Below are positions 1 through 64,000 of a stretch of 64,000 bases of DNA, piece by piece. The first letter of the stretch is position 1; each line of letters starts with the position of its first letter. The stretch comes from Cytobacillus pseudoceanisediminis. Its GTDB lineage: Bacteria; Bacillota; Bacilli; Bacillales; Cytobacillaceae. The DNA lies in the NCBI RefSeq assembly GCF_023516215.1, contig NZ_CP097349.1:2294001-2358000 (forward strand), in the 5' to 3' direction. Below the pieces are notes generated by a model. The model saw nothing but the letters and a program-made list of their open reading frames with translations. It searched no databases and was not told the origin of the DNA. Made by a program: the position numbers and the translations under genes.

Positions 1-237
1 ATCAGCCAGGTCGATATGAGCAATTACTTTCGAATCTTTTTCATCGAAAGTGTCGGTGTAAACATCATGTCTTGAAAGAGCCTGAAAGGTTAATGGTGCT
101 ACAAACTTAGCAGCCGATTCACTTAGGATAACTTTCACCTGCGCTCCAGCCTGAGTAAGCTTGCTCGTTAAGGCTGCAGCTTTATAAACAGCAATTCCGC
201 CGGTTACACATAATAATATCTTCTTTCCAGTCAGCAT
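1..237 (-). CDS. coaBC: CoaBC bifunctional phosphopantothenoylcysteine decarboxylase/synthetase, N-terminal part (runs off the window)
   Basis: Coenzyme A biosynthesis: the CoaC half of this flavoprotein decarboxylates 4'-phosphopantothenoylcysteine. Only the first 79 codons are present; the gene continues past base 1. The translation opens MLTGKKILLCVTGGIAVYK, the typical CoaC/Dfp flavoprotein N terminus with its GGIA(V/A)YK motif, followed by the expected SKLTQAGAQVKV strand-helix segment. The ATG at 235-237 follows a GGTGGGG ribosome binding site. It lies downstream of rpoZ, as in B. subtilis, but two hairpins separate them (279-321 and 395-425), so it may have its own promoter. The family is clear; the synthetase half cannot be judged. 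Confidence 0.93.
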   Translation of the reverse strand, partial: MLTGKKILLCVTGGIAVYKAAALTSKLTQAGAQVKVILSESAAKFVAPLTFQALSRHDVYTDTFDEKDSKVIAHIDLAD

Positions 238-278
238 TATATGACCCCACCAATCTAAAAAAATAATTCATCTCTATG

Positions 279-321
279 AAAAACGGCCTGCTATATATTT
301 CTATAAGCAGCACTGGCCGTT
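279..321 (-). other. Hairpin with short U-tail in the coaBC leader
   Basis: On the minus strand AACGGCC and GGCCGTT form the outer stem, TGCT and AGCA can extend it, and TTT follows. It lies between the stronger rpoZ terminator and the coaBC start. It could be a second, weak terminator or an attenuator-like element in a coaBC leader. Function is not known. Confidence 0.45.
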
Positions 322-394
322 AATGGCTTAGTTTTCATGATAGTTTTATTATGCAAGAAGAGCAGTGAATTTTCATCTAATAAAACCTTTAAAC

Positions 395-425
395 AAAAAT
401 AACAACCTTTTAAAAGGTTGTTATT
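395..425 (-). terminator. Rho-independent terminator after rpoZ
   Basis: The minus strand reads AATAACAACC, TTTTAAAA, GGTTGTTATT and then a U run. The stem is perfect and begins 9 bases past the rpoZ stop, ending the remA-gmk-rpoZ transcript. Confidence 0.85.
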
Positions 426-433
426 CAGCGATT

Positions 434-655
434 TTACTCGTATGATTCATTCGCAGTCTTTTCACCAAGCCGATAATGAAGCTGGTCCGCATGGATTTCC
501 TCAAGTGCTTTTCCCACATTTTTATGTGATTTATAGCTCTCAAGCTGTGGTCTGGCATTAAGCTGAAGCTTACGGGCACGCTTGGCAGCAACAGAAACAA
601 GTGAATATTTGGAATCAATCTTTGTCATTAGAGAATCAATAGAAGGATAAAGCAT
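434..655 (-). CDS. rpoZ: RNA polymerase omega subunit
   Basis: Small subunit that helps assemble and stabilise RNA polymerase by clamping the beta' C-terminal region. It has 73 residues, close to the B. subtilis length. The N terminus [20 protein letters not shown] and the following VAAKRARKL helix are the conserved omega core. The gene begins 2 bases after the gmk stop and is followed by a strong terminator, so it is probably the last gene of a yloC-remA-gmk-rpoZ transcription unit. A second reading frame overlaps it but shows no family features and is ignored. Confidence 0.95.
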
Positions 656-657
656 AT

Positions 658-1272
658 TTATTCTACCTCCAGCATCTTTTTGTATTTAGGTTCTACACGT
701 TCCCTGCGGCAGTGTTCTGCTACTACAATGGATTTAATTCTTTCGCAGGCAAGATCGATTTGATCATTCTCTACAACATAATCATATAAGTTCATCATTT
801 CGATCTCTTCTTTCGCTGCACTCATGCGATTGTTAATTATATCTTCTGTCTCTGTTCCCCTGGTTACGATACGGTTCTTAAGCTCGGATAAACTAGGTGG
901 AACCAGGAAGATGAACAAGCCGTCAGGGAATTTCTCACGCACTTGGCGGGCACCCTGAACTTCGATTTCAAGAAAAACATCTTTGCCCCGGTCCAGTGTT
1001 TCTCTTACATAATCAACTGGCGTTCCGTAGTAGTTACCGACGAACTCTGCATATTCAAGCAGCTTATCCTGCCTGATCAGCTCTTCAAACTCTTCACGCG
1101 TTTTGAAAAAATAATCAACTCCATTGACTTCTCCTGCTCTCGGAGATCTCGTTGTCATTGATATGGAGTATTCAAACGCAGTATCAGGCTGAGCAAATAT
1201 CTCTTTTCTTACTGTTCCTTTTCCTACACCTGAGGGTCCGGATAGAACAATCAATAACCCTTTTTCTTTCAT
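658..1272 (-). CDS. gmk: Guanylate kinase
   Basis: Phosphorylates GMP to GDP with ATP, an essential step in guanine nucleotide synthesis and salvage. The protein has 204 residues, the usual length. The P-loop GPSGVGKGT lies near residue 12, followed by the GMP-binding segment with [11 protein letters not shown] and DYFF, and the EVQGARQV stretch. The start ATG at 1270-1272 gives the standard N terminus. It sits between remA and rpoZ as in B. subtilis, separated from rpoZ by two bases, which suggests coupled translation. In Bacillus, Gmk is among the enzymes inhibited by (p)ppGpp. Confidence 0.97.
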
Positions 1273-62181: not shown

Positions 62182-62280
62182 GGCTGCCTCCTTGTAATTG
62201 GTTAAACTATTTATAATATTAGCAAAAATATACATAGACAGGTACTTATTGATGAGGCAAAATCACTGCCTAAAAACGAC

Positions 62281-62310
62281 AAAAGCACAAGAACTAAGTT
62301 CTTGTGCTTT
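62281..62310 (-). terminator. Terminator after rpmF
   Basis: AAAGCACAAGAACT and AGTTCTTGTGCTTT make a perfect 14-bp dyad on the minus strand, ending in U-rich sequence just past the rpmF stop codon. Confidence 0.88.
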
Positions 62311-62322
62311 ATATCTAAAGGA

Positions 62323-62496
62323 TTAGTCGTTTACTACTTCTTTTCCTTTGTAAGTTCCGCAAGCTTTGCAAACGCGGTGAGCAAGTTTCATTTCACCACA
62401 GTTTGGGCATTCTACCATACCAGGAACCTGTAATTTAAAATGGGTACGACGTTTTCTCTTCGCAGTTTTAGATGTTCTTCTAAAAGGTACAGCCAT
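62323..62496 (-). CDS. rpmF: 50S ribosomal protein L32
   Basis: Structural protein of the large ribosomal subunit, 57 residues from the ATG at 62494-62496 ([20 protein letters not shown], after AGGAGGTGGG). The C terminus has two CxxC pairs (CPNCG and CKACG), so this is the zinc-binding (C+) form. It follows ylbN (yceD family), the usual pairing across bacteria. Confidence 0.97.
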
Positions 62497-62614
62497 TCTT
62501 CCCACCTCCTTAAAGAGTATTAGAGGATGTCCATAGGAATTGGACACACCCATTAAGAAAGTTATGAAGGCCAGAGCAAGCTGGTGTCTTCAAGTGCTTC
62601 TTGTTTTTCTTCCG

Positions 62615-63139
62615 TTATGAATCGGAAGAAGGATCATTCTGATCAAAAAATTGAGCAAGTCCGGCAAGACGAGGATCTACTTTATCCTGTTTATCCTGCT
62701 CCTGAATGACCTCCCAATCCTTACCGGATTGAGGAGCTCCTTCTTCACTGCTGTCTTCGCAGAAAACTTGCATTGGGACTTCGAGTAAAAGGATCTCATG
62801 AAGGATCGGATTTAAATCAATCACATCCCCTTTTACCTGGTGAACCTCCTCTTCAGTCTCATAATCAAGACCTTTTAAAAGGAAAGTTTCAGTTGTTTCA
62901 ACATTAATTGGATAATTTACGTCAACTAAAGTACGAGAACAAGGTAATATTAAATGACCCTTTATATTTAAATGAAAAGTCACTTTGGCAGAATCAATAT
63001 CCGTACGGCCCGTCACATGCATTGGTGATGCACCGCGTATTTCCGGATTCAATTTCATGACCTCATCAACATTGACAGTTTCATCAATGGGAAAATCCTT
63101 GCTTCGATATTTTTGTAACTGACTTAAAGTCCATTTCAT
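62615..63139 (-). CDS. ylbN: YceD-family (DUF177) protein YlbN
   Basis: A 174-residue protein of the YceD family, which accompanies rpmF in most bacteria and in E. coli and plants is linked to 23S rRNA processing or accumulation. It has the start MKWTLSQLQKY, the central SMHVTGRTDIDSAKVTFHLN-like strand region (SPMHVTGRTDID) and the conserved single cysteine in LILPCSRTLVDV. The acidic C terminus contains DPRLAGLAQFFDQ, the family end motif. ATG 63139 follows GGGGTGAT. Confidence 0.92.
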   Translation of the reverse strand: MKWTLSQLQKYRSKDFPIDETVNVDEVMKLNPEIRGASPMHVTGRTDIDSAKVTFHLNIKGHLILPCSRTLVDVNYPINVETTETFLLKGLDYETEEEVHQVKGDVIDLNPILHEILLLEVPMQVFCEDSSEEGAPQSGKDWEVIQEQDKQDKVDPRLAGLAQFFDQNDPSSDS

Positions 63140-63340
63140 ACGAATCACCCCAAGGCAACAAAGGTAATTATAGCCTTCCTATAATTATTTGTCAATATTT
63201 TTTCTTTACACTATAATGTAGCTAATATCCTACTATTGAAGGCTTCTTCAGTAAAAAAATTTTGCAGGATTTAAAGATTTTGTTTCTTAATACTTTTTCC
63301 ATTACATATCTTTTTAAACCTTTTCGAGGAGTATGTCAAT

Positions 63341-64000
63341 ATGAATGCAACAGGTGTAATTGTAGAATATAATCCTTTTCATAACGGCCATGTTTTTCAT
63401 TTGGAGCAGGCAAAAAAAGTTTCAGGTGCAGAAACCATTATAGCTGTCATGAGCGGCAACTTTCTCCAGAGGGGGAACCTGCATTAGTTTCCAAATGGAA
63501 ACGTGCTGAAATGGCATTAAGAGCGGGTGCAGATATTGTATTTGAGCTTCCATACCAGTTTGCTGTTCAGCAGGCAGATATTTTTGCAAGCGGAGCTGTA
63601 TCCATTCTGGAAGCAGCCGGCTGCAGGAGCCTTTGCTTCGGAAGCGAATCCGGCAGTATGGAAAGCTTTCACCAAACTTTATCTTTTCTTGAGGAACATA
63701 ATTCTGCCTATCAAGAAAGGGTCAGAGTGCATCTGGATGCTGGCTTCAGCTATCCCAAAGCAACATCGATGGCATTCCTCGATCTGAACCCTGAAGGTGA
63801 ATTGGTAGACCTTTCAAAACCTAATAATATTCTTGGCTTTCAGTATTTAAAGTCAGCCCGAAGGCAATATTCATCCATGGAACTTTTTACAGTTGCAAGA
63901 AAAAGCGCAGGATACCACGACGAACAATTTGCTTCTGATTCTATAGCAAGTGCCACAAGCATAAGAAAAGCACTTTTTTCCAAGAATGGAGAGATTGAAT
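63341..64000 (+). CDS. tmcAL: tRNA(Met) cytidine acetate ligase TmcAL (YlbM), N-terminal part, frameshifted
   Basis: Makes N4-acetylcytidine at the wobble base of elongator tRNA-Met from acetate and ATP. The N terminus [20 protein letters not shown] has the HxGH-like nucleotidyl-transferase motif (NPFHNGH), followed by [10 protein letters not shown]. The frame breaks at the G5 run 63471-63475; one more G gives [21 protein letters not shown] and continues open to the window end with [17 protein letters not shown] and SATSIRKAL. The start follows GAGGAG. The gene runs off the window and is divergent from ylbN. Confidence 0.93.

Follow-up and report, generated by a model that had tools for sequence, protein, structure and literature searches.

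Are the interrupted reading frames in a 64 kb stretch of the Cytobacillus pseudoceanisediminis chromosome a property of the organism or of its assembly? The window, by which we mean the whole 64,000-nucleotide stretch analysed (G000:C1:2294001-2358000, G000 being the source assembly), contains frame breaks in 18 genes. A preliminary description, made from the letters of the window, had listed twenty such breaks in 18 core genes and attributed them to homopolymer under-calling. On comparison with other assemblies there is very little doubt that the breaks are errors of the assembly consensus, produced by homopolymer under-calling and arising in sequencing.

The source assembly comprises 5,690,443 bases in 2 contigs; its completeness is given as 99.58 and its contamination as 2.79. 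Judged by its sequence, the source genome is Cytobacillus oceanisediminis-like. The top relatives found with an FtsA query from the window were mostly titled Cytobacillus or Bacillus (among the best 80 of 449 loci), and the locus of C. oceanisediminis 2691 (NZ_CP015506.1) was 99.84% identical to the window across 21.3 kb. The 2691 chromosome matched the full window in a single alignment at 99.74% identity, relative to which the window contained 129 substitutions, 29 losses and 4 gains. Losses on the chromosome were scored with 2691 as the reference.

Frame breaks in the window and their counterparts in relatives

At all twenty listed sites bases are missing relative to 2691, where each of the 18 affected genes reads as a single open frame. 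Comparison with this near-identical strain bears out every entry of the preliminary list. A closer inspection revealed that 18 of the twenty are one-base losses inside a homopolymer run, as had been said of almost all of them. Of the other two, the ftsZ site corrects that account, one base being gone from a GA/CT tract, and the spoVD site (~48805) is a two-base loss, leaving nineteen breaks that a single extra base would mend, as described. Runs of both base classes are affected, with C/G runs at 7/20 sites, and the runs remaining at the breaks in the window are 4-7 bases long.

Genes were scored as intact where one open reading frame (ORF) spanned no less than 90% of the corresponding protein in 2691. 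The relatives were 79 loci and five genomes, some genomes possibly being present in both forms; matches below 45% identity or truncated by the end of a locus were dropped. For yloB, rqcH, pyrK, pyrB, pyrR, spoVD, bshC, yngE and tmcAL, which lie outside the loci, the five genomes were counted. The listed sites, and the false fusion that one of them makes, are as follows (aa, amino acids).

4422..4427, minus strand: yloB frame break; T run, one base lost; intact in 2691 and 5/5 relatives
6713..6718, plus strand: rqcH frame break; A run, one base lost; intact in 2691 and 5/5 relatives
10227..10231, minus strand: pyrK frame break 1; G run, one base lost; intact in 2691 and 5/5 relatives
10336..10342, minus strand: pyrK frame break 2; T run, one base lost relative to 2691
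14880..17120, minus strand: false pyrC-pyrB fusion ORF, 746 aa; two separate frames in 2691
16175..16178, minus strand: pyrB frame break near the 3′ end; C run, one base lost; intact in 2691 and 5/5 relatives
19071..19074, minus strand: pyrR frame break; C run, one base lost; intact in 2691 and 5/5 relatives
24930..24935, minus strand: divIVA frame break; T run, one base lost; intact in 2691 and 65/65 relatives
27926..27930, minus strand: pgeF frame break; C run, one base lost; intact in 2691 and 77/78 relatives
28567..28572, minus strand: ylmC frame break; A run, one base lost; intact in 2691, with 59/75 relatives passing 90% coverage
30158..30163, minus strand: sigE frame break; T run, one base lost; intact in 2691 and 79/80 relatives
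33304..33307, minus strand: ftsZ frame break near the 3′ end; GA/CT tract, one base lost; 81/81 relatives pass the coverage rule
37598..37603, minus strand: ylxW frame break; T run, one base lost; intact in 2691 and 79/81 relatives
38441..38446, minus strand: divIB frame break; A run, one base lost; intact in 2691 and 80/82 relatives
39142..39146, minus strand: murB frame break; T run, one base lost; intact in 2691 and 68/69 relatives
40384..40387, minus strand: murG frame break 1; C run, one base lost; intact in 2691 and 73/74 relatives
40455..40460, minus strand: murG frame break 2; A run, one base lost relative to 2691
48805..48810, minus strand: spoVD frame break near the 5′ end; A run, two bases lost; intact in 2691 and 5/5 relatives
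54085..54090, minus strand: bshC frame break; T run, one base lost; intact in 2691 and 5/5 relatives
57226..57230, minus strand: yngE frame break; C run, one base lost; intact in 2691 and 5/5 relatives
63471..63475, plus strand: tmcAL frame break; G run, one base lost; intact in 2691 and 5/5 relatives

The pyrC-pyrB ORF, the one false fusion that had been foreseen, results from the one-base loss in pyrB (16175..16178), and the two frames of 2691 at this place match dihydroorotase and aspartate carbamoyltransferase. In ftsZ of the window a conserved C-terminal peptide is lost that is common to the 21 relatives listed. The five related genomes read through the 18 genes as 2691 does, except for ylmC in G018 (86% coverage). 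Six of the 16 ylmC coverage failures have alignments over 85-89% of the protein, and these six look like divergent ends, not breaks.

The density of breaks was set against divergence in 58 conserved ORFs, trimmed by 30 bases per end and with G018 excluded. In this core coding sequence 21 frame-shifting indels were counted for the window, all of them losses and distributed over 18 genes. The far more diverged G005 and G006 (95% identity) have none in the same core coding sequence but 51 and 56, respectively, elsewhere. G001 and G011 (90% identity) have five core frame-shifting indels each, with a net shift in one gene each. The number of frame-shifting indels in the window exceeds chance. Substitutions in its genes fall mostly at third positions (84/116) and are mostly synonymous (82/116); selection constrains substitutions in these genes, but not indels.

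Nine losses in the window were unlisted (295, 17072, 17235, 35803, 37121, 42357, 55072, 56570, 63252), six of which, like the four gains, fall outside the 58 conserved ORFs. The preliminary list, whilst real in all 20 entries, had missed two coding sites:

37116..37121, minus strand: second ylxW break near the 3′ end; T run, one base lost relative to 2691
42354..42358, minus strand: spoVE ORF (as in 2691), loss in the first codons; T run, one base lost

The loss at 17235 removes three bases without shifting the frame, at the 3′ end of ORF 17216-18517, and that at 35803 precedes the ftsA reading frame found in 2691. The gain at 58256 is within an 88-aa ORF of 2691 that is whole in none of four relatives; this and two similar poorly kept ORFs were excluded from the conserved set.

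Searches against NCBIfam gave matches above curated cut-offs for YloB (calcium P-type ATPase), PyrK, PyrB, PyrR, a DivIVA domain, PgeF, YlmC/YmxH, SigE, FtsZ (the window's own piece), MurB, MurG, SpoVE, SpoVD and TmcAL (as PRK13670 nucleotidyltransferase). BshC, queried as one of its two pieces, scored slightly below its cut-off, RqcH, DivIB and YngE had matches below cut-offs only, and YlxW had no NCBIfam match. For these genes the names follow the labels of the preliminary description and the gene order.

Elsewhere in the genus, ftsA of G003 (L143 9009-10291) is also split in two frames. The rest of that 20 kb gives one main match per other matched gene, which makes G003 an unlikely second case of equal break density.

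Direction and sequence context of the losses

Polarity was taken from the plasmid of the source assembly. The first 20 kb of its 0.34 Mb contig (342,541 bases) matched five plasmid records, two of which, pBO1 of 2691 and the plasmid of strain CK22, served as references. These two differ from one another by 4 substitutions and no indels over 48,660 bases. The plasmid contig has 23 losses against pBO1 (49,973 bases compared), the identical 23 against the CK22 plasmid (48,633 bases) and no gains; at two of these places the change is something other than a simple shortening of a run. Both references agree and the source assembly differs at the same 23 places, therefore the short alleles belong to the source assembly. 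Were 2691 instead the sequence in error, holding extra bases where the window is correct, its plasmid should not have agreed so fully with that of CK22, nor should the five related genomes have read through the affected genes as described above. No support for such an error was found in the comparisons made, and its likelihood is vanishingly small.

Losses were then pooled over twelve stretches, namely the window, six neighbouring and two distant chromosomal stretches and three from the plasmid (~272 kb of 5.69 Mb), which gave 13 alignment pieces with 272,510 reference bases. Runs with altered flanks, L109 16,809-18,367 and the unaligned rest of L118 were left out. The pooled set contains 133 losses versus 16 gains, and just one loss has a length divisible by three. 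The probability of loss climbs steeply with run length, for A/T and C/G alike. Shortened A/T runs rise from 2/1189 (0.17%) at five bases through 16/457 (3.5%) at six and 38/151 (25%) at seven to 25/34 (74%) at eight, and both runs of 10 or more are shortened. For C/G the counts are 7/2783 at three bases, 2/527 (0.38%) at four, 13/133 (9.8%) at five, 10/16 (62.5%) at six, 4/4 (100%) at seven and 1/1 at eight. One- and two-base losses number 131, or ~0.48 per kb; if the sample is representative, the whole 5.69 Mb would hold roughly 2,700. Losses occur in all 12 stretches, on chromosome and plasmid (3 to 29 per stretch). In the 196 kb of reference around the window, 150 ORFs are 100 aa or longer and lie entirely within alignments; 53 of them have a frame-shifting difference, and 74 of the frame-shifting losses in and around the window are coding and 23 non-coding.

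Several observations weigh against under-calling as the source of these losses. The evidence consists of comparisons between assemblies, and polarity on the chromosome comes from a single near-identical strain, 2691, together with more distant relatives. The ftsZ site, one of the twenty, is no homopolymer. Only one of three A/T runs of 9 is shortened where all three were expected, contrary to the trend, albeit in three runs. Loss density is uneven, from 3 (L113) to 16 (L110) per 20 kb. Moreover, A/T runs of seven are shortened more often in coding (29/87) than in non-coding sequence (9/64, p = 0.008), and a model containing length only gives a coding effect (p = 0.002, 642 A/T runs of 6-8), an excess not foreseen if errors depended on length alone.

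The coding excess was set aside as a biological signal because the flanking bases account for it. In a model with neighbouring bases the flanks are highly significant (p = 3.6e-11) and coding is not (p = 0.23), the direction being towards more loss. Once flanks are considered, coding sequence is not spared. The effect is plain in A runs of 6-7, which lose bases in 41/220 cases after G, 8/165 after C and 5/223 after T. Such dependence on neighbouring bases would be expected of a signal-based base-caller.

The losses in short G runs, nine events in total, include seven in an A-flanked context. G runs of 3-4 lost bases in 7/645 cases with A on both sides versus 2/2,664 otherwise (Fisher p = 0.0003). 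It is conceivable, if very improbable, that part of the loss pattern, this contrast and the excess in A runs after G over those after T included, marks a DNA modification of the strain disturbing base-calling in purine tracts, in which case the errors would indirectly flag modified sites. Beyond that improbable reading, a motif resembling a methylation site at the short G runs was set aside, as the events are few and a general purine-flank effect may cover them.

Origin of the losses

Under homopolymer under-calling, the base-caller would miscount A/T runs from about six bases upwards and C/G runs from about five, the short call would be retained in the consensus, and the consensus would be left uncorrected by accurate short reads. 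The direction of loss, its dependence on run length, its spread, the unspared coding sequence and the plasmid polarity all agree with this explanation, as first put forward in the preliminary description. We infer an error of sequencing on a nanopore platform of roughly the R9 generation; attribution to nanopore reads and an unpolished assembly is likely.

A mutator strain, for instance one without mismatch repair, might instead have truly contracted its homopolymers and carry the broken genes, and slippage likewise favours homopolymers. Such a strain should have kept its essential genes intact, yet the essential ftsZ, murB and murG are broken in the window, as the preliminary description had pointed out for essential genes. 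It would also have to tolerate damage to 53 of the 150 sampled ORFs, losses that do not spare coding sequence after allowing for flanks, an excess of 133 losses over 16 gains and the shortening of 14 of 20 C/G runs of 6 and 7, all whilst substitutions in the same genes are still under selection. A mutator is extremely unlikely. Real homopolymer changes, as in phase variation and mutators, share with this assembly indels at homopolymers in genes. They typically concern few or dispensable genes and run in both directions, unlike the source assembly, where a third of the sampled ORFs is affected, essential genes are included and the changes are mostly losses.

Alternatively, the short runs could be real and the genes function through slippage of RNA polymerase or the ribosome at the run. 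Slippage of this kind is known from other bacteria at long A/T runs. The runs at the breaks, at 4-7 bases, are shorter than the long A/T tracts it requires, seven of the twenty are C/G, and 2691, at 99.74% identity, has plain open frames. We give slippage rescue practically no credence.

The under-calling could also have come from another platform, be it pyrosequencing, Ion Torrent or low-depth PacBio continuous long reads (CLR), as homopolymer indels dominate elsewhere too, including PacBio circular consensus sequencing (CCS) according to the Kastor report (PMC12007338). Two contigs for 5.69 Mb argue for long reads, and the near one-directional loss, sharp length threshold and flank effect seem to fit nanopore best. 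Another platform is unlikely, with a small but appreciable chance.

The breaks resemble published nanopore errors (PMC12007338, PMC8011154, PMC9262707). As in the long-read bacterial assemblies these reports describe, homopolymer deletions affect both base classes and shift frames. The Kastor report ties deletion errors to homopolymers, with detected errors at <0.05% of the genome in its example, and correction there reduced pseudogenes from 23.3 to 5.6% (PMC12007338). Here the error fraction is likewise near 0.05% (131 losses of one or two bases over 272,510), and the pseudogene share in both cases lies between about a quarter and a third, with 53/150 ORFs affected here and 23.3% in that example. 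Homopolish attributes frame shifts to homopolymer indel errors and counts 151-5298 pseudogenes after a Racon-Medaka pipeline on R9.4 data (PMC8011154), and the improvement from R9.4.1 to R10.4 has been credited largely to homopolymers (PMC9262707). No difference of kind from nanopore and other long-read artefacts was found in the source assembly.

Other elements and significance

Some further elements were noticed. Between yloB and rqcH, window positions 5555-5680 hold a dispersed intergenic repeat. Of the 51 match rows listed in 2691 (40 of 185 candidates scored), 43 fall on this repeat, some rows being pieces of one copy. Its orientation in 2691 follows the chromosome half, with 14/15 listed rows below 2.73 Mb on the minus strand and 27/28 above on the plus strand. 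A hairpin is possible (fold z -2.0), and no Rfam family matched at E 1. The leaders seen are ordinary: the pyr operon has PyrR binding sites at 18541-18654 and 19249-19372, and a T-box (24228-24490) lies upstream of a 923-aa ORF (21361-24132). At L109 16809-18367 (G000:C1 ~2394809-2396367), ~1.56 kb of the source assembly is absent from 2691 at that place. This is probably an insertion sequence, since its 452-aa ORF carries transposase DDE domains.

The breaks themselves are an ordinary assembly artefact, with nothing beyond published homopolymer errors. Their significance is one of data quality, 53 of 150 ORFs being affected despite a stated completeness of 99.58. For the biology of the organism they have none: the genes are almost certainly intact in the living cell, and it would be wrong to claim gene loss, pseudogenes or fusions (pyrC-pyrB, for example) on the strength of this assembly.

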